Assembly (NCBI RefSeq): GCF_003555545.1
Contig: NZ_CP032157.1
Span: forward strand, 7,878,546-7,942,545
Origin: Paraflavitalea soli
Lineage (GTDB): Bacteria > Bacteroidota > Bacteroidia > Chitinophagales > Chitinophagaceae
Length of the DNA stretch: 64,000 bases
Direction of reading: 5' to 3'
This document shows positions 8,741-63,979 of the stretch, piece after piece (positions within the stretch are counted from its first letter, which is position 1; each line of letters begins with the position of its first letter). A program made the translations under genes and the position numbers. A model generated the notes under the pieces. The model did no database searches. It was not told where the DNA came from and saw only the letters and a list, made by a program, of their open reading frames with translations.

Positions 8741-8838
8741 AGTGTCAGGCTGAGCCTGTCGAAGCCTTACTCCCTTCTCAACCTATCAACTTTCCAACCT
8801 TTCAACCCTCCCCCTCGTTGCCTCTATGCCTTCTCCTC
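8741..8838. repeat. R1 repeat followed by an octamer tract that runs into a coding end
   Basis: GTCAGGCTGAGCCTGTCGAA (R1) is followed by eight octamer-like units at 8775-8838: ttctcaac, ctatcaac, tttccaac, ctttcaac, cctccccc, tcgttgcc, tctatgcc, ttctcctc. The stop codon of the symporter gene (8824-8826) lies inside this tract. Confidence 0.8.
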
Positions 8839-9942
8839 TCCCGGCGACTTCCGATGCCAGTAAGAAGCCAGGATCGACCCTGTCACATTCATCAGCGGCC
8901 CGAAAATGGCAGGGGCCAGGCCCACCGTGGCAATCTTGCCCATGGCTTTCGCCAGGCCCGAAGCTAGTCCGCCATTTTGCATACCTACTTCGATCGCAAT
9001 CGTGCGGCAATCCCGCTCACTCATTTTAAAGAGCCGGCCGCTCCAGTAGCCAAGCAGGTAGCCCGAAAGGTTATGGACCAACACCAGTAGTACCAGGGCA
9101 GGACCGATATGCAACAGGCTGTCGCGGCCCGCAGCCGTAATGATCACAATGATGAAGGCAATCCCCGCCATAGAGACCTTAGGCATCGCTCTGTCCAGCC
9201 AGCCCGCTTTGCCGCTGAACAGTTTATTGAAGATCAGTCCGGCAAGGATGGGCACGATCACCATCTTGAAGATGTCCAGCATCATGTCTACGATATTGAT
9301 CTTGATAAACGCGCCCGCCAGCAGGTTCATCAGCATCGGCGTTACGAAGGGCGCCAGCATCGTAGAGATCGCGGTGATCGTCACCGATAGCGCCAGGTTG
9401 GCCTTGGCCAGGTACGAGATCACGTTCGAGGCCATCCCGTTGGGCGAACAACCGATCAGGATGATCCCCGCAGCGATCTCCGGGTGAAACCCGCTGATAT
9501 TGGCCAGCGTAAAACCCACCAGCGGCATAATGATAAAATGACTGATCACACCGATCAGTACCCCCTTGGGCATTTTTACCACCCCTGCAAAATCATGAAA
9601 GCTCATCGAAGTGCCCATCCCAAACATGATGAGCTGGATCAGCGGCGAGATCAGCACCGCAAACTTGAATCCATGGTACGATCTGAAGTACTGGGGATAA
9701 AAAAGCGCCGTGGTGACCGCTGCAAAAATGATCACCGTATACGAAAACCCTTTTAGGAGATTGTAACCCTGGAAGCCAATGGCTAGTAACAAAAAGAACA
9801 GGATGTAGAAGGGACCCGCAGTTTGTACGTTCCCGAATACCGTGATACCAAGCGCCACAAGCAGCAGGAGGAAGGACAGCCAGATAGCTGTCCTTAAGGC
9901 AGGATGTGTGTTTTTAGTGATTACTGTTCCGTGTGAGGACAT
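8824..9942 (-). CDS. Bile-acid:sodium-symporter (BASS) family transporter
   Basis: About 372 residues from the ATG at 9942; the longer frame upstream overlaps the amidohydrolase gene and adds no membrane segment. Eight to ten hydrophobic helices are visible. The family region is clear: LIMFGMGTSMSFHDF, IISHFIIMPLVGF-type helix, GIILIGCSPNGMASNVISYLAKANLALSVTITAISTMLAPFVTP and KMVIVPILAGLIFN. BASS proteins import organic anions (bile acids, pyruvate, pantoate, keto acids) with sodium across the inner membrane. In this locus of exported enzymes it would be the route by which the periplasmic product enters the cell, an inference from context. The last residues (GEEKA) and the stop codon are written by an octamer repeat tract. 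Confidence 0.87.
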   Translation of the reverse strand: MSSHGTVITKNTHPALRTAIWLSFLLLLVALGITVFGNVQTAGPFYILFFLLLAIGFQGYNLLKGFSYTVIIFAAVTTALFYPQYFRSYHGFKFAVLISPLIQLIMFGMGTSMSFHDFAGVVKMPKGVLIGVISHFIIMPLVGFTLANISGFHPEIAAGIILIGCSPNGMASNVISYLAKANLALSVTITAISTMLAPFVTPMLMNLLAGAFIKINIVDMMLDIFKMVIVPILAGLIFNKLFSGKAGWLDRAMPKVSMAGIAFIIVIITAAGRDSLLHIGPALVLLVLVHNLSGYLLGYWSGRLFKMSERDCRTIAIEVGMQNGGLASGLAKAMGKIATVGLAPAIFGPLMNVTGSILASYWHRKSPGEEKA

Positions 9943-9973
9943 GCTTTGTTGTTTTATTTCCCTACGTTGAGTG

Positions 9974-11257
9974 TTAATGGTTGTTGTCTGTTCTTGTACT
10001 GCCTTGCCTTTCCGTACGCGGGGGATAAACAGGCGTGGCGATACCATTCAGGTCATACACGATCTTTCCATTACGGATGGTCATAGCACACTCAAGTCTC
10101 CGGTTGCCTTTTATCTTGTACCCTGTATGATCATAGAACCCGAATTGGCCTTCCCGCAGGTGCAGGATGGCTACATCTGCTACACTGCCGGGCGATAGGT
10201 TACCCAGTTCTTGCCGTTTGATGATACGGGCTGGTGTAACCGTACTGGCCCGGATCACGGCAGCCAGGTCCATACCCAGTGCCAGGAAGGTAGATAGCAC
10301 ATTTAGCTGGTCCTTCATGGCATTGTTCATACTCGAGCTATGAATGTCCGTGCTGATGGAAGAAGGATAGAATCCCTGTTTCAGCGCCGGGATGGCCTGC
10401 GAAAAACGGAAGCTGATGCCGCCATAGCCCACATCGAAGAAGAGCCCCTTTTGGCGGGCTTCCAATACAAAAGGTTTCAGTATGCCCGTGGTTTCATCAA
10501 CGATCGCTTCCCGGCTTTCTCCCAGGTTGGCATAGGCATGCGTGAAAATATCGCCCGGGCGAAGATGCTGCAGGAACAATTCCTTCAACGATAGCGCAGG
10601 CCTGCTGCCGCCAAAGTCGATCATCACCGGAACATCTGCCAGCCTGCCTGCGGCCACCGCACTGTCTACAGGCCCCCAGGCAGGTCCTGTATAATGCGCC
10701 ACTTTGATGCCCACAATATCATTGCGGTTGGCGGCGGCTACCTGGGCGATCATAGCAGGGCTCATATCTTCCAGGTTTTGTTCATAAGCCCCGCCACGCA
10801 TGCCTTCTCCCATCACGTTGAGCATCGCCAGTACCCGCGTCTTCGACCGGTCGATGATATTTCTTTTGAACAGCGCAAAGTTCTTCCAGCCCGCGCCGCC
10901 GGCATCCACCACCGTGGTTACTCCCACACGGAAAGTGAATCCATCAGGTGGCAGCGCATCGGGTCCATTGCTCAGGTACCGGCCGGCTTCCGTGCCGGCG
11001 AATACATGCGCATGTAGATCGATGAGTCCCGGCGTAACGTAGAGACCCCTTGCATGCACTACCTGTACCGCCTGCCGGGTGTCGATATCCCTGGCCACAC
11101 GCACGATCTTCCCATCATGGATGGCCACATCGAACAACCCATCGACATGATTTGCTGGATCGATCACATGGCCACCCTTAATGACAATAGCGTAGGGCTG
11201 CGCAAAACAATAGCCGGTTACCAGCAGTAACATCGATAGGATAAATAATGGCTTCAT
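9974..11257 (-). CDS. Exported amidohydrolase/deacetylase-family metallohydrolase
   Basis: The protein has 427 residues, with signal peptide MKPLFILSMLLLVTGYCFAQ. The amidohydrolase superfamily metal site is complete: His82 and His84 in LHAH, Lys185 in GIKVAHYTG (the carbamylated bridging lysine of dihydroorotase/deacetylase types), His240 in FTHAY, and Asp304 in STDIHS. N- and C-terminal parts (VIKGGHVIDP... and VADVAILHLREG) form the small beta-sandwich. Related enzymes hydrolyse N-acyl amino acids or cyclic amides. It lies 31 bases before the symporter gene and 52 bases after RidA, in the same direction. Removing an acyl group or opening a ring in the periplasm is inferred from neighbours. 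Confidence 0.85.
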   Translation of the reverse strand: MKPLFILSMLLLVTGYCFAQPYAIVIKGGHVIDPANHVDGLFDVAIHDGKIVRVARDIDTRQAVQVVHARGLYVTPGLIDLHAHVFAGTEAGRYLSNGPDALPPDGFTFRVGVTTVVDAGGAGWKNFALFKRNIIDRSKTRVLAMLNVMGEGMRGGAYEQNLEDMSPAMIAQVAAANRNDIVGIKVAHYTGPAWGPVDSAVAAGRLADVPVMIDFGGSRPALSLKELFLQHLRPGDIFTHAYANLGESREAIVDETTGILKPFVLEARQKGLFFDVGYGGISFRFSQAIPALKQGFYPSSISTDIHSSSMNNAMKDQLNVLSTFLALGMDLAAVIRASTVTPARIIKRQELGNLSPGSVADVAILHLREGQFGFYDHTGYKIKGNRRLECAMTIRNGKIVYDLNGIATPVYPPRTERQGSTRTDNNH

Positions 11258-11309
11258 CTTCCTTTATTAGAAGTTGTCAGTAAAACGCTTTTCCAAAGGC
11301 AGGACTCCC

Positions 11310-11792
11310 TTAGGAGCCTGCTATCGCGATACAATCCATTTCAACCAGCGAGTCGCCCGGAACACCACCTTTGGCAACAGCTACCGTTGTACGAACCGGC
11401 GGGTTGGGACCGAAGCGGCCTTTGTACACTTCATTCATGCCTTTGTAATCGGCAATATCATTCAGGAAGACAGTTACCTTCAGCACTTTATCCATCGAGG
11501 TGCCGGCCTTGATCAACTCCTTCTCCAGTTCTTTCAGCACGATCTCCGTATGCGCCTTGATCTCGAAGGGCGCTTCGTGCGCGCCTTTACCGGCAATATA
11601 GACCAGTCCATTATGTTTGGTATGGCCGGAGAAGAGCGGCACATTTTGCTCATAAGTGATATTCCCTGCTTCTTTTTCAGTTGAATGGGTGCCTGCTTCA
11701 GAATGGCCGGCTGCTTTTGCCACGGTACTCACACCGGCGATACCTGCTACCGATGCCAGTAATTTTTTCAAAACGGATCTCCTTTGTTGCAT
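11310..11792 (-). CDS. RidA (YjgF/UK114) family enamine/imine deaminase with a twin-arginine leader
   Basis: The protein has 160 residues. The mature part (~120 residues) is a RidA domain: FSGHTKHNGLVYIAGKG, VLKELEKELIKAGTSMDKVLKVTVFLNDIADYKGMNEVY and the signature PPVRTTVAVAKGGVPGDSLVEMDCIAI, with the Arg that binds the substrate carboxylate in PPVRTT. The leader MQQRRSVLKKLLASVAGIAG carries RRSVLK, a good twin-arginine motif, and an AKA-type cleavage site. RidA proteins hydrolyse enamine/imine intermediates released by PLP enzymes and are normally cytoplasmic. Here the gene follows a SelA-like PLP enzyme by 29 bases, and that enzyme is also exported, so the two probably act in sequence in the periplasm. 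Confidence 0.88.
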   Translation of the reverse strand: MQQRRSVLKKLLASVAGIAGVSTVAKAAGHSEAGTHSTEKEAGNITYEQNVPLFSGHTKHNGLVYIAGKGAHEAPFEIKAHTEIVLKELEKELIKAGTSMDKVLKVTVFLNDIADYKGMNEVYKGRFGPNPPVRTTVAVAKGGVPGDSLVEMDCIAIAGS

Positions 11793-11821
11793 AAACTATA
11801 TTTTAGGTTGAATAAAAAATA

Positions 11822-13054: not shown

Positions 13055-13112
13055 ATAAAAAACATTAGAGTGTGATTCAATGTCGTTGAATTAATAGCCG
13101 AATGTCACCCTG

Positions 13113-13288
13113 TCGGCTGTCAGCCTGAGCCTGTCGAAGGCGGCTAAAGGAGCTTGTCGAAGGGTAGTCGGCTGTCAGCCTGAGCCTGTCGAAGGCGGCT
13201 AAAGGAGCTTGTCGAAGGGTGTCGGCTGTCAGCCTGAGCCTGTCGAAGGCTGTTTAAGGGTGGGTCGCCCTTCAGGGGCGGCTCACCC
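13113..13288. repeat. 55-base tandem R1 array plus R2 hairpin inside the leftward operon
   Basis: Units starting TCGGCTGTCAGCCTGAGCC lie at 13113, 13168 and 13222, a period of 54-55 bases. Each contains two TGTCGAAG motifs. The array runs into an R2 palindrome at 13258-13288 with arms GGGTGGGTCGCCC and GGGCGGCTCACCC. The whole block separates the SMP-30 gene from the PLP-enzyme gene, in the middle of a co-directional locus. Confidence 0.88.
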
Positions 13289-13297
13289 TGCTCTGAT

Positions 13298-14212: not shown

Positions 14213-14223
14213 GAATGAATGCT

Positions 14224-30623: not shown

Positions 30624-30651
30624 CATTCTGAATTCTAAATTCGAAATAACC
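30624..30651. repeat. Heptamer tract B in front of the GT9 start codon
   Basis: Units cattctg, aattcta, aattcga and aataacc end two bases before the GTG at 30654. Confidence 0.6.
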
Positions 30652-31681: not shown

Positions 31682-31723
31682 AGATTCTGTATCCTGTATT
31701 CTATATTCTCTATTCTTGTATTT
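31682..31723. repeat. Heptamer tract B before the CCA-enzyme gene
   Basis: Six units: agattct, gtatcct, gtattct, atattct, ctattct, tgtattt. The tract ends 11 bases before the ATG at 31735. Confidence 0.8.
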
Positions 31724-33402: not shown

Positions 33403-33437
33403 AACCAGAAAACCAAAAACCAGAAACACGTAACAAC
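33403..33437. repeat. Heptamer tract of the AAACCAG type abutting a start codon
   Basis: Five units, aaccaga, aaaccaa, aaaccag, aaacacg, taacaac, end at 33437; the ATG is at 33438. Confidence 0.7.
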
Positions 33438-35390: not shown

Positions 35391-35588
35391 TGTCATCTCG
35401 CTCTTCCTTGTCATCTCGAACGGAGCGCATTCTTCTTTTGTCATCGAACGAACCGCATTCTTTCTTTCATTTCGAACGAAGCGCATTCTTCCATTGTCAT
35501 TTCGAACGAAGCACAGCGTAGTGAGAAATCCGCTATCGAAGCAAAGGATTGCCGATTCACGATTGCCGATTCACGATTGCCGACTGCC
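35391..35588. repeat. R3 tandem units followed by heptamer tract A
   Basis: TCATYTCGAACG-type units begin at 35393, 35411, 35441, 35467 and 35497. The last runs into GTAGTGAGAAATCCGCTATC, and then six heptamers lie at 35547-35588 (gattgcc, gattcac, gattgcc, gattcac, gattgcc, gactgcc). The tract ends one base before the stop codon of the leftward porin gene. Besides these repeats and the small RNA, the 35089-35589 gap holds no gene. Confidence 0.88.
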
Positions 35589-35589
35589 G

Positions 35590-39844: not shown

Positions 39845-39975
39845 GTTAGCGGTTAGGTATTGGCTTTTAGCTAAAATCCACAGCCAACTGATAAGGCCTA
39901 AAAGCTAACTGCTAAAAGCTAATTTCTTGTTCCCAATCCTGGATTCTGAATTCTGTCTTCTGTATTCTGTATTCT
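39845..39975. repeat. Two heptamer tracts, one palindromic as a whole, before pntAA
   Basis: At 39845-39921 eleven heptamers include gttagcg, gttaggt, tttagct and then aaagcta, actgcta, aaagcta; the first half is roughly the inverse complement of the second, so the tract could fold. At 39941-39975 follow five units of type B (ggattct, gaattct, gtcttct, gtattct, gtattct). pntAA starts 35 bases later. Confidence 0.82.
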
Positions 39976-41256: not shown

Positions 41257-41291
41257 AACCCGAAACACCAAACCCAAAACTCAAAACAGTA
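41257..41291. repeat. Heptamer tract of the AACCCAA type before pntAB
   Basis: Five units, aacccga, aacacca, aacccaa, aactcaa, aacagta, end two bases before the ATG at 41294. Confidence 0.7.
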
Positions 41292-44782: not shown

Positions 44783-45910
44783 ATGAAATTCATGTCTATG
44801 TTGAAAATCAATGTATTACTTGTTGTTTTTGTACTCATGGCCAATATGTTGGGCGCCCAGCAGCTCAAAGTGCAGGGGGCATCACCCTCCCTGTACCTCA
44901 CCCACACCGTGGCCGCCAAGGAGAACTGGTACAGTATCGGACGTTTGTACAATGTGAGCCCCAAAGAAATTGCGCCCCTCAACAACGCCAGCATGGACAA
45001 ACCCCTGGCGATCGGCCAGTCATTAAAGATCCCCCTCACTACCAATTTATCAATCAACGGTACCAAAGCCGCCGATGAAGTATTTGTACCCCTGTACCAT
45101 ACCGTACAGGAAAAAGAATGGTTATACCGCATCAGCCAAAGCCACAATAAAGTACCCGTAGCCAACCTGGAAAAATGGAACAATATCACCAATGACCAGC
45201 TAAAGCCCGGCATGACCATCATTGTAGGTTACCTGAAAGTAAAGACTGGACAAAGTGCACTTGCCGCATCCGGCGTCAATAAGATAGTAGCTGTTACCCC
45301 AGCGCCACCCTTGGCAAAACCAGAACCTGTAAAAGAAGAAGTGAAGAAAGAAACACCCGTTACAACCAATCCGGTTGCTGGTACCACCAATCCTCCGGCA
45401 ACAAGCACTGCCAAAGAGACCACCACCGGCACCGTGAAAACAGAAGAGCCTAAAGCAACGACTCCGCCCGTAGAAAAGCCTGTTGAGAAACCTGTAGAAA
45501 AACCGGCCGTTACACCGCAGCCAACCACCACCACCGCATCTATTCCGCCTGCCGGGCCAACTACTACCGTTTCAACCAATAATAACAATGGTTCGTCTTC
45601 CAGTCACAAAGGCGGTTATTTCAGGTCCCAGTATGCTGAGACCGGTAAGATCACCACCGGCAATGCAGGCATCTTCCGCAGCACCAGTGGCTGGAAAGAT
45701 GGAAAGTATTATGCACTTATGAACAATGTGCCTGTAGGGACCATCGTGAAAATAACCTTTACATCCACCCAGAAAACCGTATACGCCAAAGTGCTGGGCC
45801 AGATGCCCGAAATGAAAGAAAGCCTGGGGCTCACCCTGCGCCTCAGCGATGCCGCTGCTTCCGAACTGGGCACCGAGAATGGTAAGTTCTATGTCGATGT
45901 GAAATACTAA
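44783..45910 (+). CDS. Exported LysM protein with C-terminal beta-barrel-like domain
   Basis: The protein has 375 residues, with signal peptide MLKINVLLVVFVLMANMLGA (the first MKFMS may be part of it). Two LysM domains follow: LTHTVAAKENWYSIGRLYNVSPKEIAPLNNAS at ~38-85 and PLYHTVQEKEWLYRISQSHNKVPVANLEKWNNIT at ~103-150. A long Pro/Thr/Lys linker (ETPVTTNPVAGTTNPP, VEKPVEKPVEKP) leads to a C-terminal ~100-residue domain: GYFRSQYAETGKITTGNAGIF, VPVGTIVKITFTSTQKTVYAKVLGQMPE, which looks like a double-psi barrel or RlpA/SpoIID-related fold. It should bind peptidoglycan. It lies 24 bases after the methyltransferase gene. Confidence 0.82.
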   Translation: MKFMSMLKINVLLVVFVLMANMLGAQQLKVQGASPSLYLTHTVAAKENWYSIGRLYNVSPKEIAPLNNASMDKPLAIGQSLKIPLTTNLSINGTKAADEVFVPLYHTVQEKEWLYRISQSHNKVPVANLEKWNNITNDQLKPGMTIIVGYLKVKTGQSALAASGVNKIVAVTPAPPLAKPEPVKEEVKKETPVTTNPVAGTTNPPATSTAKETTTGTVKTEEPKATTPPVEKPVEKPVEKPAVTPQPTTTTASIPPAGPTTTVSTNNNNGSSSSHKGGYFRSQYAETGKITTGNAGIFRSTSGWKDGKYYALMNNVPVGTIVKITFTSTQKTVYAKVLGQMPEMKESLGLTLRLSDAAASELGTENGKFYVDVKY

Positions 45911-45945
45911 GCTGCGAGCTGCTAGCTCCGAGCTGCGAGCGAATA
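45911..45945. repeat. Heptamer tract D directly after the LysM gene stop codon
   Basis: Five units, gctgcga, gctgcta, gctccga, gctgcga, gcgaata, begin at the base after the stop codon (45908-45910). Confidence 0.82.
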
Positions 45946-45998: not shown

Positions 45999-46017
45999 TG
46001 CAACTCACTCTTTGTTG

Positions 46018-46108
46018 TCATCTCGAACGCAGCGCAGCGGAGTGAGAGATCTGCTATCGAAGCAAACGTATTCTATATTCTAAATGCTGTATCCTGTATT
46101 CTTTCCCC
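46018..46108. repeat. R3 core plus heptamer tract B, abutting the fmt stop codon
   Basis: TCATCTCGAACGCAGCG, GGAGTGAGAGATCTGCTATC and GAAGCAAA, followed by six heptamers (cgtattc, tatattc, taaatgc, tgtatcc, tgtattc, tttcccc) at 46067-46108. The fmt stop codon occupies 46109-46111. Confidence 0.85.
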
Positions 46109-47140
46109 TCAAAACCGGTAACCACGTAGAAACTCCTCGATCGTCATACGTTTCTTGCCTTCCAGTTGAATATCCAGCACATGGATATACCCATCCGTAC
46201 AGGCAAATTTCAGGTAGGTCTTCCCGTTCGTGTCTGCCGATCCCGGTGGGATAGTAGGCGGCGCGATCTCTTTCTTCGAGCGGTAGATCTTTAGTACCTT
46301 ATCCTGCAGATAGGTAAAGGCGCCGGGAAAGGGCGATAGTCCGCGGATCAGGTTGTGAATGTCAAAGGCAGTTCCCTGCCAATCGATTTTAGCCGTCTCC
46401 GTGAATATTTTGGGTGCATGTTTAAGTAACGTTGCATCTTCATTGCCGACTGCCGACTGCCGATTGCCGATTGCCGATTGCTGATTGCCGACTGCCGACT
46501 GCCGATTGCCGATTGCCGATTCACGACTGCCGATTGCCGATTCCTGAGGTCGCTCTTCAATCGTTCCCGCCACCAGCCCTTCTACCGTTTTCACCAGCAG
46601 TTTGGCGCCAATCTCTTTCATATAATCATGCACGTCACCTGCACTATCGTCTTCCCCGATGGGAAAACTTTCCTGCAGCAGGATATGCCCCGTATCTATT
46701 TCCTGTTGTAATTTAAAAGTCGTCACCCCCGTTTCTTTTTCACCATTGATCACCGCCCAGTTGATGGGCGCCGCGCCACGGTATTGCGGCAGCAGTGAAC
46801 CATGCAGGTTCACCGTGCCCAGCGGCGGCATGTTCCATACTACTTCCGGCAACATCCGGAATGCTACTACTATCTGCAGGTCAGCCCGCAGCCCGCGCAA
46901 TTCTTCCAGGAAGCCCGGGTCTTTTAGTTTGGCCGGTTGCAACAGGTGCAGCCCTTTTTCAACAGCATATTTCTTCACCGCACTTTCATTCATTTTCATG
47001 CCCCGGCCCGCCGGTTTATCCGGCGCCGTTACTACACCCACTATCCGGGCGCCGGCTTTTACCAACGCATCCAGCGAGGCCACCGCAAATTCCGGCGTAC
47101 CCATAAATACGATCCTTGTATCTTTCAATTGGTCACTCAT
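46109..47140 (-). CDS. fmt: Methionyl-tRNA formyltransferase with a 35-residue repeat insertion in its linker
   Basis: The protein has 343 residues; relatives have about 305-315. The formyltransferase domain shows RIVFMGTPEFAVASLDAL, VVTAPDKPAGRGMKMNESAVK, NLHGSLLPQYRGAAPINWAVINGEKETGVTTFKLQQEIDTGHIL, and the C-terminal domain LKHAPKIFTETAKIDWQGTAFDIHNLIRGLSPFPGAFTYL. Between them residues ~198-233 are a 7-residue repeat (ESAIGSR, ESAIGNR, QSAVGNQ and so on), written by exactly 15 heptamers (105 bases, a multiple of three). The site is the known flexible linker between the two domains. It formylates initiator Met-tRNA. Tolerance of the insert is expected from the place. Confidence 0.95.
   Translation of the reverse strand: MSDQLKDTRIVFMGTPEFAVASLDALVKAGARIVGVVTAPDKPAGRGMKMNESAVKKYAVEKGLHLLQPAKLKDPGFLEELRGLRADLQIVVAFRMLPEVVWNMPPLGTVNLHGSLLPQYRGAAPINWAVINGEKETGVTTFKLQQEIDTGHILLQESFPIGEDDSAGDVHDYMKEIGAKLLVKTVEGLVAGTIEERPQESAIGSRESAIGNRQSAVGNQQSAIGNRQSAVGNEDATLLKHAPKIFTETAKIDWQGTAFDIHNLIRGLSPFPGAFTYLQDKVLKIYRSKKEIAPPTIPPGSADTNGKTYLKFACTDGYIHVLDIQLEGKKRMTIEEFLRGYRF
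46441..46545. repeat. Heptamer tract A of 15 units inside fmt
   Basis: Units are cattgcc, then gactgcc, gattgcc, gattgct and gattcac variants, ending gattcct; 15 x 7 = 105 bases. Variation between units rules out recent slippage of one perfect unit. Confidence 0.92.
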
Positions 47141-47171: not shown

Positions 47172-47293
47172 TCGTTGCCTGTTTGCCTTGTTGCCTCGTT
47201 GCCTTGATGCCTCGTCGCTTTTCATCACCTCGCTACTTCGCATGCAAAGTTGTTTTCTGCTCGCAGCTCGTAGCTCACAGCTCGAAGCTTTCT
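47172..47293. repeat. Octamer tract followed by heptamer tract D, near the NamZ-like stop codon
   Basis: Six octamers lie at 47172-47219 (tcgttgcc, tgtttgcc, ttgttgcc, tcgttgcc, ttgatgcc, tcgtcgct). Five heptamers lie at 47259-47293 (gctcgca, gctcgta, gctcaca, gctcgaa, gctttct), ending two bases before the stop codon at 47296. Confidence 0.85.
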
Positions 47294-47295
47294 TC

Positions 47296-48654
47296 CTAAA
47301 AATCCTCATAGATCAAATACTTCTTCCTGATCTCCTTAAACTTCCTCAACCCCGGCTCCCAGCTCTCCCTGATCTCCGCTTCCGTCTTTCCTTCCTTCAC
47401 CTGTTGCATCAACACATTATTACCCGCCAGCTTGTTGAAGAAATTGCCTTTGTTCAGGAAGAAAGAATCCTTTACCGGAAACTGACGATACGCTTCCAGC
47501 AGATACTTGATCTGCACCCGGTTGTTCACCTTCGACAATACTTCCTCCGGTTGTCCGCTCAGGTCCCATCCATAACAAAGCTGGTCTTTCAACTTGGGAT
47601 TAGTAGCCCCTGGCATACTGCGTGGGGTAAAGCTCACCAGGTTTTTCGGCAGCGTGGGATGACCAAACACCTGGAAAGGTTTATTCGTACCCCTGCCCTC
47701 ACTCAATACCGTGCCTTCGAAAAAGCAGGTCGATGCATACCAGTAAATCGATTGAATATCCGGTAGGTTGGGCGAGGGCTTCACCGGTAACACATACTTG
47801 CTCTTGTGCGTATAATTAAGACAGGGAATGATCGTCAGCGAAAAGGCCTTGGGGCTCGTGGGTGCACGTCTCCTTTCCATCGCCGCCCGTTCAGGCGAAG
47901 AGGCGATATTGATGGGCGCCGTCACTTTTTGGCGAAGCCATCCTTCCCCCGCCAGCAGGTAGGCGTATTCACCGATCGTCAGGCCATACACAATAGGGAT
48001 CGGCTGCATGCCTACAAACGACCGGAATGCTGTGTCCAGCACCGGTCCGTCCACATAAAACCCATTGGGGTTGGGGCGATCCAGTATAATAAGCGGCTTG
48101 TTGTTTTCTATTGCCGCTTCCATATATTCCTGCATCGAAGAAATATAGGTATAGAAACGCGTGCCTACATCCTGGATATCAAAAAGCAGCACATCCGCTA
48201 CACTGAGGTCTTCCGCCGAAGGACGGTGTTTGCTGCCATAGAGCGACACCACCGGTATGCCCGTTTGTGCATCCGTATAATTGCCGATTTTTTCACCTGC
48301 ATCTGCCGTACCCCTAAACCCATGTTCCGGGCCAAAGATCACTGTGATATTGACCCCCTTTTCTTTCAGCACATCCACGAGATTTTTATTGCCGATAACA
48401 GAGGTATGGTTGGCGAAGACCGCCACCCGTTTTCCCTGCAGGCGCGGCAGGTACTGATCAAGCCGTTCCGCTCCCGTCACAATACCCGGTTCAGTGTATG
48501 GTCTTCCCGACTCCGTCCTTCCAACTCCCGCCTCCAGCCTCGGAACTCCCGACTCCCGAGTCTGTCCTCCCAACTCAGAACTCCAGCCTCCAACCTCCAC
48601 AGCCGTGCTCAGCGCAATACCGCAGGACATCAATCCTATAAGAAATTTGTTCAT
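47296..48654 (-). CDS. Exported NamZ-like (DUF1343) exo-beta-N-acetylmuramidase with a heptamer-encoded segment
   Basis: About 452 residues from the ATG at 48654. The leader MNKFLIGLMSCGIALSTA is followed immediately by ~33 residues of 7-residue repeats (ELGGQTR, ESGVPRL, EAGVGRT, ESGRPYT) written by heptamer tract E. The enzyme domain then starts at LDQYLPRLQGKRVAVFANHTSVIG and shows DUF1343 blocks: ITVIFGPEHGFRGTADAGEKI, VSLYGSKHRPSAEDLSVADVLLFDIQDVGTRFYTYISSMQEYMEAAIEN and LDRPNPNGFYVDGPVLD. NamZ of Bacillus removes terminal MurNAc from peptidoglycan chains. The repeats lie where signal cleavage should occur, so processing may differ. Confidence 0.88.
   Translation of the reverse strand: MNKFLIGLMSCGIALSTAVEVGGWSSELGGQTRESGVPRLEAGVGRTESGRPYTEPGIVTGAERLDQYLPRLQGKRVAVFANHTSVIGNKNLVDVLKEKGVNITVIFGPEHGFRGTADAGEKIGNYTDAQTGIPVVSLYGSKHRPSAEDLSVADVLLFDIQDVGTRFYTYISSMQEYMEAAIENNKPLIILDRPNPNGFYVDGPVLDTAFRSFVGMQPIPIVYGLTIGEYAYLLAGEGWLRQKVTAPINIASSPERAAMERRRAPTSPKAFSLTIIPCLNYTHKSKYVLPVKPSPNLPDIQSIYWYASTCFFEGTVLSEGRGTNKPFQVFGHPTLPKNLVSFTPRSMPGATNPKLKDQLCYGWDLSGQPEEVLSKVNNRVQIKYLLEAYRQFPVKDSFFLNKGNFFNKLAGNNVLMQQVKEGKTEAEIRESWEPGLRKFKEIRKKYLIYEDF
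48503..48600. repeat. Heptamer tract E of 14 units inside the NamZ-like gene
   Basis: Units cttcccg, actccgt, ccttcca, actcccg, cctccag, cctcgga, actcccg, actcccg, agtctgt, cctccca, actcaga, actccag, cctccaa, cctccac: 98 bases. The tract meets the signal-peptide coding part exactly at base 48600. Confidence 0.85.
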
Positions 48655-48803
48655 AGTGCTCAATTCAATGAATAACAGCTTAAGTAATTGAAACTCAAAG
48701 ATAGTTTTTTCTGCCATCAGCCGGCCCCATTAACCCATAGTCAGCAGTTGGCAACTAGGATCAGGTAACCCAAATTTAATCTTGTTGTACAAATCGCGGC
48801 AGC

Positions 48804-48852
48804 CATCCTAAATCCTACATCCTAAATCCTAAATTCTACATCCTAAATCCCC
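48804..48852. repeat. Heptamer tract of the CATCCTA type
   Basis: Seven units, catccta, aatccta, catccta, aatccta, aattcta, catccta, aatcccc, lie in the 338-base gap between the divergent NamZ-like and FKBP genes. Nothing else was recognised in that gap. Confidence 0.82.
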
Positions 48853-50209: not shown

Positions 50210-50216
50210 ATAGCAG

Positions 50217-50447
50217 TATGTCAGCCTGAGCCTGTCGAAGGCGTCTTAAAGACCCCGTCGAATCCTTAACGTATGTCAGACTGAGCCTGTCGAAGGCGTC
50301 TTAAAGACCCCGTCGAATCCTTAACGTATGTCAGCCTGAGCCTGTCGAAGGCGTCTAAAAAAAACCGTCGAAGCCTTAACGTATGTCAGCCTGAGCTTGT
50401 CGAAGGCGTCTCAAGGGTGGGTCGCCCTTTCAGGGCGGCTCACCCTG
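50217..50447. repeat. Four-unit tandem array of 55 bases (R1) ending in an R2 hairpin
   Basis: Units start TATGTCAGCCTGAGCC at 50217, 50272, 50327 and 50382, exactly 55 bases apart. They contain CTGTCGAAGGCGTC and CCGTCGAA parts. The fourth unit breaks off into the R2 palindrome at 50415-50445. The period equals that of the array at 13113. There are no spacers, so it is not a CRISPR. Confidence 0.93.
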
Positions 50448-52581: not shown

Positions 52582-52672
52582 AGGTTAACAAGTTAACAGG
52601 TTGACGAGTGGATAAGTTGGCAAGGTGAGGCCTTATCAACCTGTCAACTTTCCAACCTGTCAACTCCACCCC
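52582..52672. repeat. Inverted pair of octamer tracts after pepT
   Basis: aggttaac, aagttaac, aggttgac, gagtggat, aagttggc, aaggtgag (52582-52629), then ttatcaac, ctgtcaac, tttccaac, ctgtcaac, tccacccc (52633-52672). The second half is the approximate inverse complement of the first, so a long imperfect hairpin is possible. Confidence 0.8.
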
Positions 52673-52706: not shown

Positions 52707-53984
52707 ATGTTGATCAATGATCCTATAGCGTGTTGCTCCCTAAGAAAGTTAATCCCCTTCCTCCCTTTTCAACAAGTTGACCTTTCAACTTGTCAACCTT
52801 TTACCTTTTCAACTCGTCAACCCGTTCACCTTTCAACCCGTCAACCCCTGGGAGGTTTAATCCTCCTATTTATAGGTATCCTGCTAAGCATGTATGCCCC
52901 CGCGCAAAACTTACTCGCCAACGGCAGCTTTGAAGAGGAGAACATTTGCGTGGAATACAAGCACAATTGCGCCCCCGAAGCCTGGATGGCCAATTCCATG
53001 TGGGCCAATTATTACTATTATACCCCCGGCAAAGCATACGAGGGTACCCATTTTATAGGCCTGGCAGCGGGTGCCGTCTACCAGGGTGTACACAATTTCA
53101 TTCGTACCCGCCTGCTTTGTGGCCTCCAGCCCGGCCATCAGTACCAGCTTACTTTTTACCTGCGCTCCCGCCACGATATACTCGATAGCGTGGGCGTATA
53201 TTTTAGCCCGGGCGATTTCCTGTATGAAAAAAGGAGCTTCAAACTCCTGGAGCCTCAGCTTTGGGCTGTCAATGCATTGGATACCCTGGAAGCTGATCCC
53301 AACTATTGGCAAAAAGTACGCCTCATCTATACCGCCACTGGCGAAGAAGGCTTTATGACCATCGGTAGTTTCAACAGGAAAGAGTACAAGTTCCGGGGCA
53401 GCCCCGATTTCAACCGCGATTACTATTTCTATGTAGATGAAGTATCATTGATCCCCTTGGATAAGCAGGAGCAACTTTGTCCCCAGGCCGATAGCGTGGC
53501 TACTGATATATACAACGAGAACCAGCACCACGAAATGCTCAAAAGGCAGGTATATGCCCGCAGCAAAAATCCGCCCCCTATAATGCCTTTACCGAAGACG
53601 AGGAACAGGTTCATCCCTCCCCGTCAACGCATCGATACCCTCATTATCCCCGATATCTTTTTCGCCACTGCCAGCTATGAACTATCTCCCAAAAGTTACC
53701 ACTTGCTCGATAGTTTTTCCAACCAGCTCAGCAGGTTCCGCGTCGACTCTGTGGTCATTGAAGGACATACCGATAGTGTAGGTAAATTGGCTTATAACCA
53801 GCGGCTCTCACTCAACCGCGCAACCGCCGTGCAGGAGTACATAGAAGATAAATTACCACCGGAGAAGATCGTGTTCACGGTCCGCGGCTTTGCCTTCACG
53901 AAGCCTGTAGCATCCAATAAAACTCCGCGTGGCCGCCAAAAGAACAGGAGAGTGGAAGTATATGTGTACAGGAAAGAGCAGTAA
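52707..53984 (+). CDS. OmpA-family outer-membrane protein with an octamer-encoded N-terminal extension
   Basis: The protein has 425 residues. From ~53 a secretion helix GLILLFIGILLSMYAPAQ is evident, then a ~220-residue jelly-roll-like domain (NLLANGSFEEENICVEYKHN, GLAAGAVYQGVHNFIRTRL), then a C-terminal OmpA peptidoglycan-binding domain (FFATASYELSPKSYHLLDSF, VVIEGHTDSVGKLAYNQRLSLNRATAVQEYI, NRRVEVYV). Odd: residues ~21-50 in front of the helix are an 8-residue repeat (VDLSTCQP, FTFSTRQP, VHLSTRQP) written by ten octamers. The only ATG upstream of the helix is at 52707, so the signal peptide has a repeat-made n-region, or the start codon is lost and expression is weak. Confidence 0.82.
   Translation: MLINDPIACCSLRKLIPFLPFQQVDLSTCQPFTFSTRQPVHLSTRQPLGGLILLFIGILLSMYAPAQNLLANGSFEEENICVEYKHNCAPEAWMANSMWANYYYYTPGKAYEGTHFIGLAAGAVYQGVHNFIRTRLLCGLQPGHQYQLTFYLRSRHDILDSVGVYFSPGDFLYEKRSFKLLEPQLWAVNALDTLEADPNYWQKVRLIYTATGEEGFMTIGSFNRKEYKFRGSPDFNRDYYFYVDEVSLIPLDKQEQLCPQADSVATDIYNENQHHEMLKRQVYARSKNPPPIMPLPKTRNRFIPPRQRIDTLIIPDIFFATASYELSPKSYHLLDSFSNQLSRFRVDSVVIEGHTDSVGKLAYNQRLSLNRATAVQEYIEDKLPPEKIVFTVRGFAFTKPVASNKTPRGRQKNRRVEVYVYRKEQ
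52766..52845. repeat. Ten-unit octamer tract at the 5' end of the OmpA gene
   Basis: Units ttttcaac, aagttgac, ctttcaac, ttgtcaac, cttttacc, ttttcaac, tcgtcaac, ccgttcac, ctttcaac, ccgtcaac. Ten octamers, core NNNTCAAC, run into the signal-helix coding part. Confidence 0.9.
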
Positions 53985-54032: not shown

Positions 54033-54185
54033 TCATTTCGACCTTGTTTATCGATTCAACCTTTTTTGTCATTTCAACCTTGTTTGTCATTTCGAACGCA
54101 GCGAAGCGGAGTGAGAAATCTGCTATCGAAGCAAAAGAATCCAAGCAAAAGATTGCCGACTGCCGATTGCCGACTGCCGATTCAC
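54033..54185. repeat. 18-base tandem R3 units, R3 core and heptamer tract A, reaching the reductase stop codon
   Basis: TCATTTCGACC-like units start at 54033, 54051, 54069 and 54087, 18 bases apart. The last runs into GCGGAGTGAGAAATCTGCTA. Heptamers gattgcc, gactgcc, gattgcc, gactgcc, gattcac occupy 54151-54185. The reductase stop codon (54182-54184) is part of the last unit. Confidence 0.87.
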
Positions 54186-58930: not shown

Positions 58931-58959
58931 TCTCCAAACAACGTATTAAAAAGAAGAAT

Positions 58960-60423: not shown

Positions 60424-60455
60424 CCGGGCTGACCATTAACTGCTAAATAAAAAAT

Positions 60456-60492
60456 GATACCCCGGAATCTGTTTTTCCGGGGTATCTTTTTT
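60456..60492 (+). terminator. Intrinsic terminator of the SusC/SusD operon
   Basis: GATACCCCGGAA (60456-60467) pairs with TTCCGGGGTATC (60475-60486), followed by six T. Confidence 0.92.
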
Positions 60493-60536
60493 ATTTTAGG
60501 ACAGCAACTCCACACCTGAATAATAAACCCTGCACT

Positions 60537-61229
60537 ATGTATAAAAAATTATCGATGCCTGTTTTGTTCCTGTTCGTTTTTACCGAAGGAATAGCACAGC
60601 TGAATACCTTGGGGTCCAATCCTTTCATGAGCGATGCCAATGGCAGGCCGGCCTATTTGAAGACCGAATACAATGTAGAAGGCAGCCCCTGGTACCATGA
60701 TGCATACAGCGTGGCCGAAATTACCTCCACTGCCGGTAAGGTCTATTCCAATGTACAGGTGAAGATCAACCTGGCCGAGAATGAGGTCCTCTACCTCGCC
60801 GATGATGGCAAGGAAATGGTAGCTACCATCCCCATCAAAAAGATCAGGTTCATTCAATTTGTGAGCAAAGAAGGGGTGGCCGACAAAGTACTCGAAAGCT
60901 TTGGCCAGCCCATGAATACCCCTAAGAATATCATCTACGAAGTGTTGGACTCCGGGAAGTGTACCTTACTCAGGCAGATCAGGATCACCTCCCAGGACAA
61001 CCGCCGCTTCAACGAGGCCAGCATCACCCGCACCTTTCAGCGCAGCGAGTTCTGCCATGTATTGTTGCCCGACGGCAAAATACAAAAGCTCAGTGCCGGT
61101 AAAGACGATATGATCAACCTCCTGCAGGATAAGAAAGCCGAAGTGAGCGCATTCATCGACGAAAAACGACTGAAATGCCGCAATGTCGAAGATTACCGGA
61201 AAGTAATAGCCTATTACAATTCCCTTTAA
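60537..61229 (+). CDS. Secreted protein of unknown function
   Basis: The protein has 230 residues, with signal peptide MYKKLSMPVLFLFVFTEGIA. The body is mostly beta: GRPAYLKTEYNVEGSPWYHDAY, VYSNVQVKINLAENEVLYLADDGKEMVATIPIKKIRFIQF, YEVLDSGKCTLLRQIRI, FQRSEFCHVLLPDGKIQKLSAGKDDMINLLQDKKAEVSAFI. I recall similar unnamed secreted proteins in Bacteroidota, with a DGKIxKLxxxKDDxIxLL motif, but no function. It lies between the SusD terminator and the SPFH gene, and may be in an operon with neither. Confidence 0.75.
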   Translation: MYKKLSMPVLFLFVFTEGIAQLNTLGSNPFMSDANGRPAYLKTEYNVEGSPWYHDAYSVAEITSTAGKVYSNVQVKINLAENEVLYLADDGKEMVATIPIKKIRFIQFVSKEGVADKVLESFGQPMNTPKNIIYEVLDSGKCTLLRQIRITSQDNRRFNEASITRTFQRSEFCHVLLPDGKIQKLSAGKDDMINLLQDKKAEVSAFIDEKRLKCRNVEDYRKVIAYYNSL

Positions 61230-61303
61230 CCACTCACCCCTCGCCATTAACCCCTCGCCGCCCGTATTAATAAAAAGTACTACTTTCAGCAAAATTTTGT
61301 CAT

Positions 61304-62230
61304 ATGGAACTCCTCCAGTCCTATTGGTGGGTAATCATTATCGTACTGATCCTCTTTGCCGGGCTCAAAACCATTAACCAGGGTTTTGTGGGTGTCGTCA
61401 CCATGTTCGGAAGGTACCAGCGCGTCATACGACCCGGTCTCAACCTCCTGATCCCTTTCTTCGAAAAGATCGCCAAGCGCGTCAGCATCCAGAACCGTTC
61501 CGTGGAAATGGAGTTCCAGGCAGTGACCGCCGATCAGGCCAATGTCTATTTCAAAAGCATGCTCCTGTATTCCGTACAGAATGCCGATGAAGAGACTATC
61601 AAGAAAGTAGCTTTTAAATTCCTCAGCGAGCGCGACCTCATGCAGGCCCTCACACGCACTATCGAAGGCACTATCCGTTCCTTTGTGGCCACCAAACGCC
61701 AGGCCGAAATCCTCGCCCTGCGCAAGGACCTGGTGGAATACGTGAAAGAGCAGATCGATCAACTCCTCGAAACCTGGGGTTACCACCTGCAGGACCTCCA
61801 GATCAACGATATCACCTTCGATCAGGCCATCATGGATTCCATGAGCCGCGTAGTGGCTTCCAACAACCTGAAGGCGGCCGCCGAAAACGAAGGCCAGGCA
61901 CTCCTCATCACCAAAACCAAATCTGCCGAAGCAGAAGGCAATGCCATCAAGATCGCTGCCGAAGCAGAGCGTCAGGCAGCTCAACTGCGCGGACAGGGTG
62001 TGGCTTTGTTCCGCGAAGAAGTGGCCAAAGGTATGAGCCATGCAGCCGAGCAGATGAAACAGGCCAACCTCGATACCAATGTGATCTTGTTCAGCATGTG
62101 GACCGAAGCCGTGAAGAACTTTGCCGAATATGGAAAGGGCAATGTCATCTTCCTCGATGGAAGCCCCGATGGCATGGAGCACACCATGAAACAGATTCAG
62201 GCCATGATGATGAAGAAAGCAGGAACCTAA
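61304..62230 (+). CDS. SPFH/Band 7 domain protein (stomatin/prohibitin-like)
   Basis: The protein has 308 residues. A single N-terminal membrane helix WWVIIIVLILFAGLKT is followed by the SPFH domain (NQGFVGVVTMFGRYQRVIRPGLNLLIPFFEKIAKRVSIQNRSVEMEFQAVTADQANVYFKSMLLYSVQN) and a coiled-coil Ala/Glu-rich tail (KAAAENEGQALLITKTKSAEAEGNAIKIAAEAERQAAQLRGQG). Such proteins form rings in membrane microdomains and often work with FtsH-type or NfeD-type proteins, none of which is adjacent. The start is a clear ATG. Confidence 0.92.
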   Translation: MELLQSYWWVIIIVLILFAGLKTINQGFVGVVTMFGRYQRVIRPGLNLLIPFFEKIAKRVSIQNRSVEMEFQAVTADQANVYFKSMLLYSVQNADEETIKKVAFKFLSERDLMQALTRTIEGTIRSFVATKRQAEILALRKDLVEYVKEQIDQLLETWGYHLQDLQINDITFDQAIMDSMSRVVASNNLKAAAENEGQALLITKTKSAEAEGNAIKIAAEAERQAAQLRGQGVALFREEVAKGMSHAAEQMKQANLDTNVILFSMWTEAVKNFAEYGKGNVIFLDGSPDGMEHTMKQIQAMMMKKAGT

Positions 62231-62242
62231 TATCTGCCCATG

Positions 62243-62330
62243 GATGTCAGGCTGAGCTTGTCGAAGCCGTCTAAAGAAGCCTGTTGAAGGGTGGGTCGCC
62301 CTTCAAGGGCGGCTCACCCTGATCTGAAGA
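62243..62330. repeat. R1 plus R2 composite repeat
   Basis: TGTCAGGCTGAGCTTGTCGA, GCCGTCTAAAGAAGCC, then the R2 palindrome at 62289-62319 with arms GGGTGGGTCGCCC and GGGCGGCTCACCC, ending CTGATCTGAAG. Confidence 0.88.
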
Positions 62331-62438
62331 GTTCATCTTCCCGCATTACGTATATAACAAAGTTTTAAGAAATATAAATAGTGTAAAAATCGTTTTAGGC
62401 ACACATTTGATACTTTTACACCACTAAAATAATACTGG

Positions 62439-63146
62439 ATGAATTGGTTTTTTTTGCAGGTTACCAATCCGGCTGCCACAGTCGCTGATTCACTGAAACA
62501 AGTGATGCAAAGTAGTGGTTCTGCGCCTTCTATGAATGTGATGGAAATGCTGGCCCATGGTGGCCCCCTCATGATTCCTTTGGCTCTTTTGTTGGTGCTG
62601 GCCGTGTTTTTCTTCTTCGAGCGCCTCATCGCCATCCGCAAAGCCAGTAATATCGACCCCAATTTCATGAATATTATCCGCGACAATGTATTCAGCGGCA
62701 ATGTGAGCGCAGCCCGCTCCCTGGCCAAGAATACCTCCAATCCCGTAGCCCGGATGATCGATAAAGGATTACAACGTATCGGCAAGCCCATCGACGCCAT
62801 TGAAAAAAGCATGGAGAATGTGGGCAAGCTCGAGATCTATAAAATGGAACGCAACCTGTCCATGCTGTCTCTGGTATATGGTATTGCACCCATGTTTGGT
62901 TTTTTGGGTACCATCTTCGGTATGCTCCAGTTGTTTTACAACATCAATGCTTCCGGCGATTTTACCCCCGCCCAGATTGCTGGTGGTATCTATACCAAGA
63001 TGATCACTTCCGCCAGCGGTTTGATCATTGGTCTGTTGGCTTATGTAGGATACAACTTCCTCAATGCCCAGATCGATAAGAACGTGAACAGGATGGAAGT
63101 GGCCAGCGCCGAGTTCATCGATATCCTGCAGGAGCCTACACGATAG
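62439..63146 (+). CDS. MotA/TolQ/ExbB proton channel protein
   Basis: The protein has 235 residues. Three membrane helices are seen: MIPLALLLVLAVFFFFERL, MLSLVYGIAPMFGFLGTIFGMLQLFY and ITSASGLIIGLLAYVGYNFL, with the family motif GIAPMFGFLGTIFGM and the following GGIYTKMITSASGL. With ExbD it makes the proton-driven motor that energises TonB, needed by the three SusC receptors in this window. exbD-like follows 179 bases downstream on the same strand, separated by repeat elements. Confidence 0.92.
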   Translation: MNWFFLQVTNPAATVADSLKQVMQSSGSAPSMNVMEMLAHGGPLMIPLALLLVLAVFFFFERLIAIRKASNIDPNFMNIIRDNVFSGNVSAARSLAKNTSNPVARMIDKGLQRIGKPIDAIEKSMENVGKLEIYKMERNLSMLSLVYGIAPMFGFLGTIFGMLQLFYNINASGDFTPAQIAGGIYTKMITSASGLIIGLLAYVGYNFLNAQIDKNVNRMEVASAEFIDILQEPTR

Positions 63147-63164
63147 GAAATGATATCAAAAGCC

Positions 63165-63310
63165 AATCGTAGCAAAAGGTATTTTAACCCTGTAGAGGTT
63201 ACCGCTTTGTAGCGTCGGATCAAAAGGTTTTTTTACCCCTTTAGGGGTTAAAGCTTTGTAGTAGAAATTAACAAATACGATTTCATTTGCCCTGTAGCGG
63301 CAATCCTTTT
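63165..63310. repeat. Degenerate CCCTGTAGAGG/TTTGTAG repeats between exbB- and exbD-like genes
   Basis: AACCCTGTAGAGGTTACCGC and TTTGTAGCG, then TTTACCCCTTTAGGGGTTAA and GCTTTGTAGTAG, then GCCCTGTAGCGGCAA. Each is a short palindrome around CCYTGTAGGGG or CCCCTTTAGGGG, followed by TTTGTAG, and each is read as one unit of a third intergenic repeat family (R4). Confidence 0.65.
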
Positions 63311-63325
63311 GTAAAATATTTTTGA

Positions 63326-63724
63326 ATGAACTTAAGAAACAGGTTAAGATCACATCCCGAACTGCACGCAGGAGCCTTGAATGACATCCTGTTCATCCTC
63401 CTGTTCTTCTTCCTCATCGTTTCCACCATTGCCAATCCCAATATTGTAAAGGTCAATAACCCCCGTGGTACAAAAGATACCAAGGCCAAACAGCATATTA
63501 CCGTTTCCATCGACAATACCCAGCAGTTCTTCATCGGCACCAAAAAGGCCGATCCCATCCTGTTCGATACCCTGCTGAAAGCAGAGATCGCCAAATTCAA
63601 ACTCAATGTAGATACCCCCGTGGTCGTCATCAATGCCGATACCACCGCTTATTGGGGCGAGATCTTCCGCATCATGCGCATCTCAAAAAGCGTAGGCGCC
63701 AAGGTAGTGGCCAATGTGAAGTAA
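63326..63724 (+). CDS. ExbD/TolR-type biopolymer transport protein
   Basis: The protein has 132 residues. The N-terminus MNLRNRLRSHPELHAGALNDILFILLFFFLIVSTIAN holds the single membrane helix with the conserved Asp (ALNDILFILL) that takes part in proton transfer. A periplasmic beta domain follows (HITVSIDNTQQFFIGTKKAD, TPVVVINADTTAYWGEIFRIMRISKS). It pairs with the ExbB-like protein just upstream. The gene has no other good start. Confidence 0.92.
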   Translation: MNLRNRLRSHPELHAGALNDILFILLFFFLIVSTIANPNIVKVNNPRGTKDTKAKQHITVSIDNTQQFFIGTKKADPILFDTLLKAEIAKFKLNVDTPVVVINADTTAYWGEIFRIMRISKSVGAKVVANVK

Positions 63725-63756
63725 GTAGTAAAGGTCGCCAGAGCATACCCCATTTT

Positions 63757-63979
63757 GTCATCTCGAACGGATATCTATCCCCGTTTTGTCATCTCAAACG
63801 GATATCTATATCCATGTTATCATCTCGAACGGATATCTATCCCCGTTTTGTCATCTCGAACGCAGCGAAGCGGAGTGAGAGATCCGCTATCGAAGCAAAA
63901 GCCCATTCGTTCTTCTTTACGAAGCAAAAGCATTGCCGATTCACGATTGCCGATTGCCGATTGCCGACTGCCGATTCAC
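63757..63979. repeat. 31-base tandem R3 units, R3 core and heptamer tract A
   Basis: TCATCTCGAACGGATATC-type units begin at 63758, 63789, 63820 and 63851, 31 bases apart. The last gives way to GCGGAGTGAGAGATCCGCTA and GAAGCAAAAG. Seven heptamers follow at 63931-63979 (cattgcc, gattcac, gattgcc, gattgcc, gattgcc, gactgcc, gattcac). No gene is seen from 63725 to the window end. Confidence 0.9.

Follow-up and report, generated by a model that had tools for sequence, protein, structure and literature searches.

Polar arrays of degenerate 7- and 8-nucleotide repeats in intergenic DNA of Paraflavitalea soli and related bacteria

Heptamer arrays have been noted repeatedly in bacteria without an established mechanism. 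The window of our analysis is a 64-kb stretch (bases 7,878,546-7,942,545) of the one-contig, 8.44-Mb genome of Paraflavitalea soli (G000), in which an initial annotation had pointed out tracts of degenerate repeats with periods of 7 and 8 nt. Three things are to be explained about these arrays: the dispersal of their words, their polarity, and their tolerance by selection. The polarity, the inverted arms and the proximity to stop codons that are introduced below are features that the initial annotation had missed.

The arrays have been detected as runs that score +1 for every base identical to the one p positions further along and -1.5 for every other base, with p being 7 or 8, and the control is a simulated Markov copy of the DNA (of second order for the window) that has been passed through the same detector. 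The P. soli sample comprises 864 kb, about a tenth of the genome: 464 kb (the window and 20 stretches) and a second 400 kb. The relatives, mostly Chitinophagaceae, have been found via a window protein; they include four congeners (G001-G004), whose array densities come from partial genome samples. The set called “other loci” consists of 80 loci around one gene, from many Chitinophagaceae and related genera (1.41 Mb; 79 loci in the polarity count). The genes have been called with a home-made hexamer model, which is not a curated annotation, and the letters of the word families are labels coined in this analysis.

Abundance, position and polarity of the arrays

At a score of at least 10, the 864 kb of P. 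soli DNA hold 85 arrays of period 7 or 8, vs 1 in the simulated control; the arrays are thus in excess over random sequence and are not confined to the window. The window is array-rich, with 16 places per 64 kb, vs 45 and 24 in two 400-kb samples. It holds 19 places at a score of at least 9, 16 at 10 and 11 at 12 (the control holds 0 at 9 or more), and all but one of the 19 fall in the part from 30 to 64 kb. Run with a minimum score of 30, Tandem Repeats Finder returns 69 rows for the window, with about two dozen places of period 7 or 8, some of them barely above two copies; the count of more than twenty tracts in the initial annotation is reached only when such weak two-copy places are included.

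In the first 464 kb, at a score of at least 12, the counts for periods 7, 8, 14 and 21 are 35, 10, 29 and 16, respectively; no array has a period of 9, 10 or 13, and the control is empty at periods 7 and 8. The second 400 kb is poorer: 11, 0, 7 and 1 arrays of periods 7, 8, 11 and 13, respectively. At a score of 12, the other loci have 110 runs of period 7 and 25 of period 8, with 7, 1, 2, 11 and 1 runs of periods 9 to 13. The 346 kb sampled from other Bacteroidota families, in twenty stretches of which three are short, contain 3 arrays of period 7 and 1 of period 8. An excess of 7-nt units is also known from the short tandemly repeated repetitive (STRR) repeats of cyanobacteria.

The arrays are mostly intergenic: coding DNA holds 8 of the 85 P. 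soli arrays, though 79% of the bases are coding. They are concentrated next to stop codons, since a position within 8 bp of a stop edge is found in 28 of 62 cases in P. soli (5.6 by random placement), in 15 of 29 in G002 and G004 together (6.3) and in 51 of 117 in the other loci (18.7). The corresponding counts at start edges are 6 of 51 (vs 4.1), 3 of 27 (vs 3.4) and 27 of 110 (vs 17.0), the last one being above all 200 random draws. Arrays are scarce in the divergent spacers of P. soli (3 of 97) and of the other loci (9 of 140); in G002 and G004 there is no depletion (5 of 58). Three arrays of the window are located in frame within coding genes, of the fmt, RsmF and NamZ types; by eye, other words occur at these positions in G002 or G004.

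The left edge of a spacer bears the G-rich form of the word (AGAATAC, CGGCAATC, GAGCTAC, GGTTTCG, TTAGCTG, AAGGCAAC), and the right edge bears its complement. At up to 15 bp from a gene edge, the G-rich strand is directed from the gene into the spacer in a ratio of 35:2 in P. soli (4 ties), 14:3 in G002 and G004 (1 tie) and 63:13 in the other loci (10 ties); stretches from Ku-positive genomes outside the family give 7:0. This polarity is valid at start and stop edges alike, and is independent of the strand of the nearest gene. It also holds in arrays with fewer than two GG/CC runs (20:2 in P. soli, 37:10 in the others).

The same word often returns in the opposite orientation in the same spacer: such a second array is present in 14 of 64 P. 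soli spacers (1-3 with permuted words) and in 37 of 115 spacers of the other loci (3-6), while second arrays in the same orientation number 6 (vs 0-3) and 16 (vs 5-10). Under a slightly different rule, 55 inverted pairs have been collected (13 from P. soli, 12 from G002/G004 and 30 others), of which 50 are G-first, 3 are C-first and 2 are ties; among pairs with fewer than two GGG runs, the ratio is 40:3, with 2 ties. Ordinary intergenic hairpins do not share this bias: perfect hairpins outside arrays are distributed 78:58 (G-first to C-first) in P. soli, 81:89 in the others and 31:43 in G001 and G003. The order of the unit variants is not mirrored between the arms of 46 pairs (1063 matches vs 1067 +- 7 expected), in a test that gives z values of at least 12.6 for simulated mirror copies with 5-25% substitutions; this suggests that each arm was made separately from the one word, or that the arms have since turned over. 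Across the array spacers, the arms often carry different words.

Word families and orthologous spacers

The heptamer families are A (GAYTGCC/GATTCAC), B (ATTCTNN), C (ATCCTAN), D (AGCTNCG), E (GCTAANN), K (GACTTCN), L (AACCCGA) and M (ACTCCCG), and the octamer families are F (AGGCANNN, also TTGCCTNN), G (TCAACNNN), H (AAGTCCGG) and I (AATTATCA), to which some rarer words are added. All the families that the initial annotation had named are present in the window, i.e. A to E (D also as AGCTCGN), M, AAACCNN and the octamers TCAACNNN and TTGCCTNN. The pattern GAYTGCCGAYTGCC has 200 matches in the whole P. soli genome, and its reversed form has 0; among 58 relatives it is matched in 8 (2, 12, 1 and 29 matches in the four congeners, 13 in G008 and 1 in each of three others), and the reversed form has one match in each of three. 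The pattern GTATTCTGTATTCT has 71 matches in P. soli, and is matched in 5 of 58 other genomes. The same words occur at unrelated sites within P. soli, G002, G004 and G008. In the other loci, 70 of 135 heptamer arrays share an identical word with another locus, vs 27.6 for letter-shuffled words, a comparison that mixes in inheritance because all these loci are neighbourhoods of one gene. The heptamer words of P. soli show no excess of sharing with the other loci (56 of 135 within one letter, vs 62.5 by chance), and its octamer words are shared in 9 of 32 cases (vs 2.5 by chance).

The congeners differ strongly in density: at a score of 10, there are 32 arrays in 422 kb of G004 and 18 in 148 kb of G002, and two of the four sampled congeners are nearly array-free (1 in 289.5 kb of G001, 0 in 162 kb of G003). 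The whole genome of G001 is not empty, since several matches to an F octamer array are among the matches listed. A genus with both array-rich and array-poor species makes the origin of the arrays testable. We have compared 57 P. soli spacers from three syntenic blocks with their orthologs (36 to 39 mapped per congener; array threshold 7.5), the spacers of the congeners being too diverged for base-by-base alignment. Spacers that carry an array in P. soli have a median length of 191 bp, vs 100.5 bp in G003, and of 176.5 bp, vs 89.5 bp in G001; for array-free spacers, the medians are 102 vs 93 and 121.5 vs 92. Arrays recur in G002 in 6 of 16 array spacers, vs 2 of 21 array-free ones (p 0.05), and in G004 in 5 of 14, vs 2 of 22 (p 0.06); a stricter count on one block gives a smaller recurrence (4 of 10 and 3 of 8). 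In G003 (0 of 14) and G001 (0 of 12) no array recurs in the spacers that carry one in P. soli.

Eleven comparisons have an array in both species: 7 share the word within one letter, one more belongs to the same family by eye, and 3 differ. The differing words are B in P. soli and L in G004 at 31,684, F and D in P. soli and G in G002 at 47,175, and A in P. soli and H in G002 at 54,151; a site can change its word, though the number of cases is small. The limited set of word families and the empty sites in relatives agree with what had been expected of these tracts. Since several congeners and many unrelated sites have identical words, and the orthologous spacers of G001 and G003 are array-free, something seeds or copies the words, as the initial annotation had proposed.

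Origin of the arrays and comparison with known systems

The interpretation that we prefer, with a probability of roughly 0.4, is that the arrays form a single class of degenerate, polar 7-/8-nt repeats that fill little-constrained DNA in Chitinophagaceae, chiefly after stop codons, and that they are produced, probably, by a polar stutter of DNA synthesis together with the dispersal of words. DNA synthesis that enters a spacer would stutter in a register of 7-8 nt, either where it meets a hairpin or at a repair end; if the stuttering strand is the one made with the G-rich word, each 3' end entering the spacer would gain G-rich copies, which would in turn give inverted arms. Point mutation and slippage would later render the arrays degenerate, and selection would let them extend as far as the stop codon, mostly end them before the promoter, and keep them in frame in protein linkers. 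In favour of this interpretation are the edge polarity, the excess of same-word inverted partners, the G-first bias of the pairs that ordinary hairpins do not have, the unmirrored arms, the placement near stop codons and in frame in three coding genes, the words common to unrelated sites and the words that differ within one spacer between species. The function of the arrays is most likely nothing specific. The hairpins may persist, as the SbcD nuclease (TIGR00619) is below the cut-off in 10 of 10 Chitinophagaceae genomes; 8 of 14 control genomes reach it.

Several observations weigh against this interpretation. Beyond 15 bp from the gene edge the polarity weakens (11:5 and 7:5 in P. soli), a small sample of G008 gives 2:2, and spacer edges that lack an array are themselves weakly skewed in the same direction (about +0.04 to +0.09 at the left, -0.08 to -0.13 at the right). 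An inverted partner is recognised in just a fifth to a third of the array spacers, and P. soli hairpins without an adjacent A or T run also lean G-first (51:29). The spreading of words to new sites would be due to ectopic template switching, which is an assumed step. As the array-poor congeners likewise lack SbcD, its absence does not explain the difference between rich and poor species; the candidates reverse transcriptase (RT), Y1 transposase, SbcD and Ku have given no clear answer, and neither an enzyme nor an event has been seen.

A possible but rather doubtful alternative is ordinary replication slippage, by which local seeds would grow in units of 7-8 nt and be tolerated in little-constrained DNA; the polarity would then reflect the seeds that expand or survive. 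A polymerase footprint was reportedly suggested by Mrazek in 2007 as a basis of slippage, for long simple sequence repeats with an excess of 7-nt units. A simulation of slippage with mutation reproduces both the column pattern and the order of units inside the arrays, and the weak skew of array-free edges also fits this explanation. The initial annotation had held that unit variation speaks against simple recent slippage; variation alone does not exclude it, since mutation during growth gives the same concentration of variants in columns (1.65 and 1.87 times chance). We have likewise dropped unit order as a test, because the spacing of two units has hardly any influence on their identity and simulated slippage is equally flat, so that the test has no power; an apparent gradient of degeneracy from the gene edge has proved to be an artefact of consensus tie-breaking, and leave-one-out identity shows little of it. 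Statistics within arrays cannot separate a polar stutter from slippage with mutation. Slippage does not account for the recurrence of identical words at hundreds of sites that are unrelated, for a word shared by opposed arms, or for the different words at one site between species.

It is unlikely that the arrays are functional elements under selection at 3' ends or between operons, such as RNA hairpins, protein binding sites or termination aids. Their abutment on stop codons, their scarcity in the divergent spacers of P. soli and the other loci and the ability of inverted arms to pair are what such elements would lead one to expect; against this, divergent spacers are not depleted in G002 and G004, the arms do not track each other's unit variants, arrays also occur inside coding genes, they are near-absent in the samples of two congeners with the same genes, and the identity of the word at a site changes. 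In a search of the window with Rfam 15 at gathering score, the single match is a tRNA, and no family matches any array.

Very unlikely, in our estimate, are the ends of small transposable elements, of the miniature inverted-repeat transposable element (MITE) type or of the type of repetitive extragenic palindromic (REP) sequences paired in an inverted doublet (REPIN), with the heptamer arrays as terminal inverted repeats. The inverted arms do bound an insert in the spacer, as array spacers are about 90 bp longer in median than their counterparts in G001 and G003, and dispersed repeats (REP1-3, below) stand beside some arrays. However, the arms often carry different words, and our search for family-specific conserved cores between arms has found mostly unrelated cores, at single loci or orthologs, with the exception of the short repeat GCTGCCGCGATTTG, which adjoins C and L arrays; moreover, the counts of Y1 transposases (2, 2, 3, 2 and 3 in G000 to G004) do not track array richness. 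The intergenic position, the opposed copies and the preference for unidirectional or convergent genes are shared with REP/REPIN sequences and their REP-associated tyrosine transposases (RAYT), as described in the parts of PMC3733652 used here; the arrays are unlike them in that a conserved palindromic core is absent.

Ku is present in the P. soli genome. Stretches from 17 Ku-positive genomes (one of Chitinophagaceae) have 11 arrays of period 7/8 in 500 kb at a score of at least 12, vs 0 in 246 kb from 15 Ku-negative ones; matched Ku-negative relatives, 63 kb only, have 2 weak octamer arrays, and the array pattern GTSAATG has 12 and 10 matches in the Ku-negative G158 and G177. A dedicated telomerase-like activity that copies a short RNA or DNA template onto 3' ends at spacer breaks, which are then joined, would directly give the polarity, the same word on both arms and the unmirrored order, and would be in line with the Ku contrast, but it is most improbable: about a dozen words would require as many templates, RT matches (2, 3, 1, 1 and 1 in G000 to G004) do not track array richness, and the Ku contrast, confounded by lineage and made without G001-G004, meets arrays in Ku-negative genomes.

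The class to which the arrays belong is known; what our literature search has not met is its many-word form in Chitinophagaceae, with few quadruplex-capable words, and the change of word at shared sites. The portions of Rehm 2015 (PMC4692102) used here describe the words GGGAATC, from two Xanthomonas, and GGGGA(C/T)T, from Nostoc, as polar relative to open reading frames. Convergent pairs number 70 and 75 in the xanthomonads and are few in Nostoc, and repeats are under-represented where frames diverge. The same portions discuss quadruplex formation, report that no function was found, and note that length and sequence vary between species. Similarly, the P. soli arrays consist of degenerate 7-nt units, are mostly intergenic and polar at the edges, and form G-first inverted pairs. 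Unlike the one quadruplex-chosen word per genome in those portions, there are about a dozen 7-/8-nt words here, few of them capable of a GGG quadruplex, and the word differs between species at a few sites. Four GGG/CCC runs, the number needed for a quadruplex, occur in 1 of 85 P. soli arrays and 5 of 178 others, four GG/CC runs in 30 and 31 of these, respectively, and GGGANTN three times in tandem at 1 of 259 loci. If the polarity known from the quadruplex word of Xanthomonas holds for about a dozen words that are unrelated, then the quadruplex is not its general cause, and the polarity belongs to the making of the arrays. That Xanthomonas, Nostoc and Chitinophagaceae share a templated, polar end-extension, which would add G-rich words of 7-8 nt at spacer-facing 3' ends in the manner of a telomerase in circular chromosomes, with exchangeable words, is a conjecture to which we assign very little probability. 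The common polarity of about a dozen words suggests that bacteria have a general mode of making such DNA. The arrays described here lengthen spacers and also occupy protein linkers, in the fmt- and RsmF-type genes.

Heptamer arrays had been thought undescribed in Bacteroidota, but the sections of MacGregor 2015 (PMC4679880) consulted report TAACTGA direct repeats in Beggiatoaceae, Cyanobacteria and five Bacteroidetes, some of them with other heptamer arrays. Those repeats resemble ours in being mostly intergenic heptamers, patchy among relatives, with shorter array-free spacers in some close relatives; in the main genome of those sections, one word stands mostly just upstream of start codons, whereas stop edges are preferred here. 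TAACTGA twice in tandem has 0 matches in the window and 259 loci. Our literature search has met no many-word polar arrays in Chitinophagaceae, in a library beyond which much literature lies.

Across the phylum, the array pattern GTSAATG is matched in 5 of 148 genomes and its reversed control in 2 of 148. The reversed pattern (TAASTGGTAASTGGTAASTG) has 8 and 11 matches in two Bacteroidota genomes (G068 and G073), in heptamer arrays that resemble the published TAACTGA word. In a Ku-positive genome from another family of the class (G184, L244-L245), there are two long octamer arrays, with the words GGTGATRC and GGTACACA.

Arrays of the window and neighbouring repeats

The arrays of the window and the adjacent copies of REP1 are listed in Table 1. 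Leaders rich in A and C, akin to the array that starts at 33,409, are seen by eye in 4 of 4 congeners.

Table 1. Repeat arrays and REP1 copies of the window, in window positions.
Positions	Strand	Feature	Site
8778-8807		Octamer array, family G (TCAACNNN), score 9.5	C-rich form on +
30625-30647		Heptamer array, family B (ATTCTNN)	6 bp ahead of gene start
31684-31716		Heptamer array, family B	Same site: B in G002, L (AACCCGA) in G004, no array in G001 or G003
33409-33435		A/C-rich heptamer array (AAACCNN)	2 bp ahead of start codon
35496-35545	+	REP1 dispersed repeat	Immediately ahead of family A array
35547-35589		Heptamer array, family A (GATTGCC/GATTCAC/GACTGCC)	Abuts stop codon of right-hand gene
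39898-39922		Weak heptamer array, family E (CTAAAAG)	Inverted partner to left by eye
39936-39975		Heptamer array, family B	
41257-41287		Heptamer array, family L	6 bp ahead of start codon
43513-43549		Heptamer array, family A	In frame in RsmF-type methyltransferase gene, residues 68-80, N-terminal domain; other words in G002 and G004 by eye
45910-45940		Heptamer array, family D (AGCTNCG)	Begins at stop codon; G-rich form on +
46017-46068	+	REP1	Immediately ahead of family B array
46069-46102		Heptamer array, family B	6 bp from stop codon of right-hand gene
46444-46542		Heptamer array, family A, 14 units	In frame, linker between two Pfam domains of formyl-transferase (fmt type), residues 200-233
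47175-47212		Octamer array, family F (TTGCCTNN)	Spacer has G in G002, F in G004
47259-47289		Heptamer array, family D	6 bp from stop codon on right
48505-48599		Degenerate heptamer stretch, family M (ACTCCCG)	Residues 40-71 of NamZ-type gene, in frame, close to N-terminus and before NamZ domain
48805-48850		Heptamer array, family C (ATCCTAN)	Divergent spacer, after short repeat AAATCGCGGCAGCC
52582-52628		Inverted octamer pair, family G, left arm	G-rich
52785-52847		Inverted octamer pair, family G, right arm of the 52582-52628 pair	C-rich
54086-54137	+	REP1	13 bp ahead of family A array
54151-54180		Heptamer array, family A	1 bp from right stop edge; inverted family H pair in G002 spacer
63850-63899	+	REP1	About 37 bp ahead of family A array
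63937-63983		Heptamer array, family A	

The dispersed repeat REP1 (GTCATYTCGAACG...GAGTGAGARATCTGCTATCGAAGCAAA) faces a heptamer array with its 3' end at four sites of the window, and its core pattern is found 18 times in P. soli, 28 times in G002, once in G004 and 0 times in the other 56 relatives. REP2 (GTCAGCCTGAGCCTGTCGAAGGC) forms 55-bp tandem copies at window positions 13111-13250 and 50216-50411, and the palindrome REP3 (GGGTGGGTCGCCC...GGGCGGCTCACCC) is also common in spacers. The short repeat AAATCGCGGCAGC (complement GCTGCCGCGATTT) is located directly before both C and L arrays, at 48790-48804 of the window and at loci L006, L008, L013, L033 and L085; different words therefore follow the same neighbour. 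At L014 (11800-14430) there are five arrays from four word families, each preceded by the same motif, with the ending CGTGTATTC, which itself resembles a family B unit.

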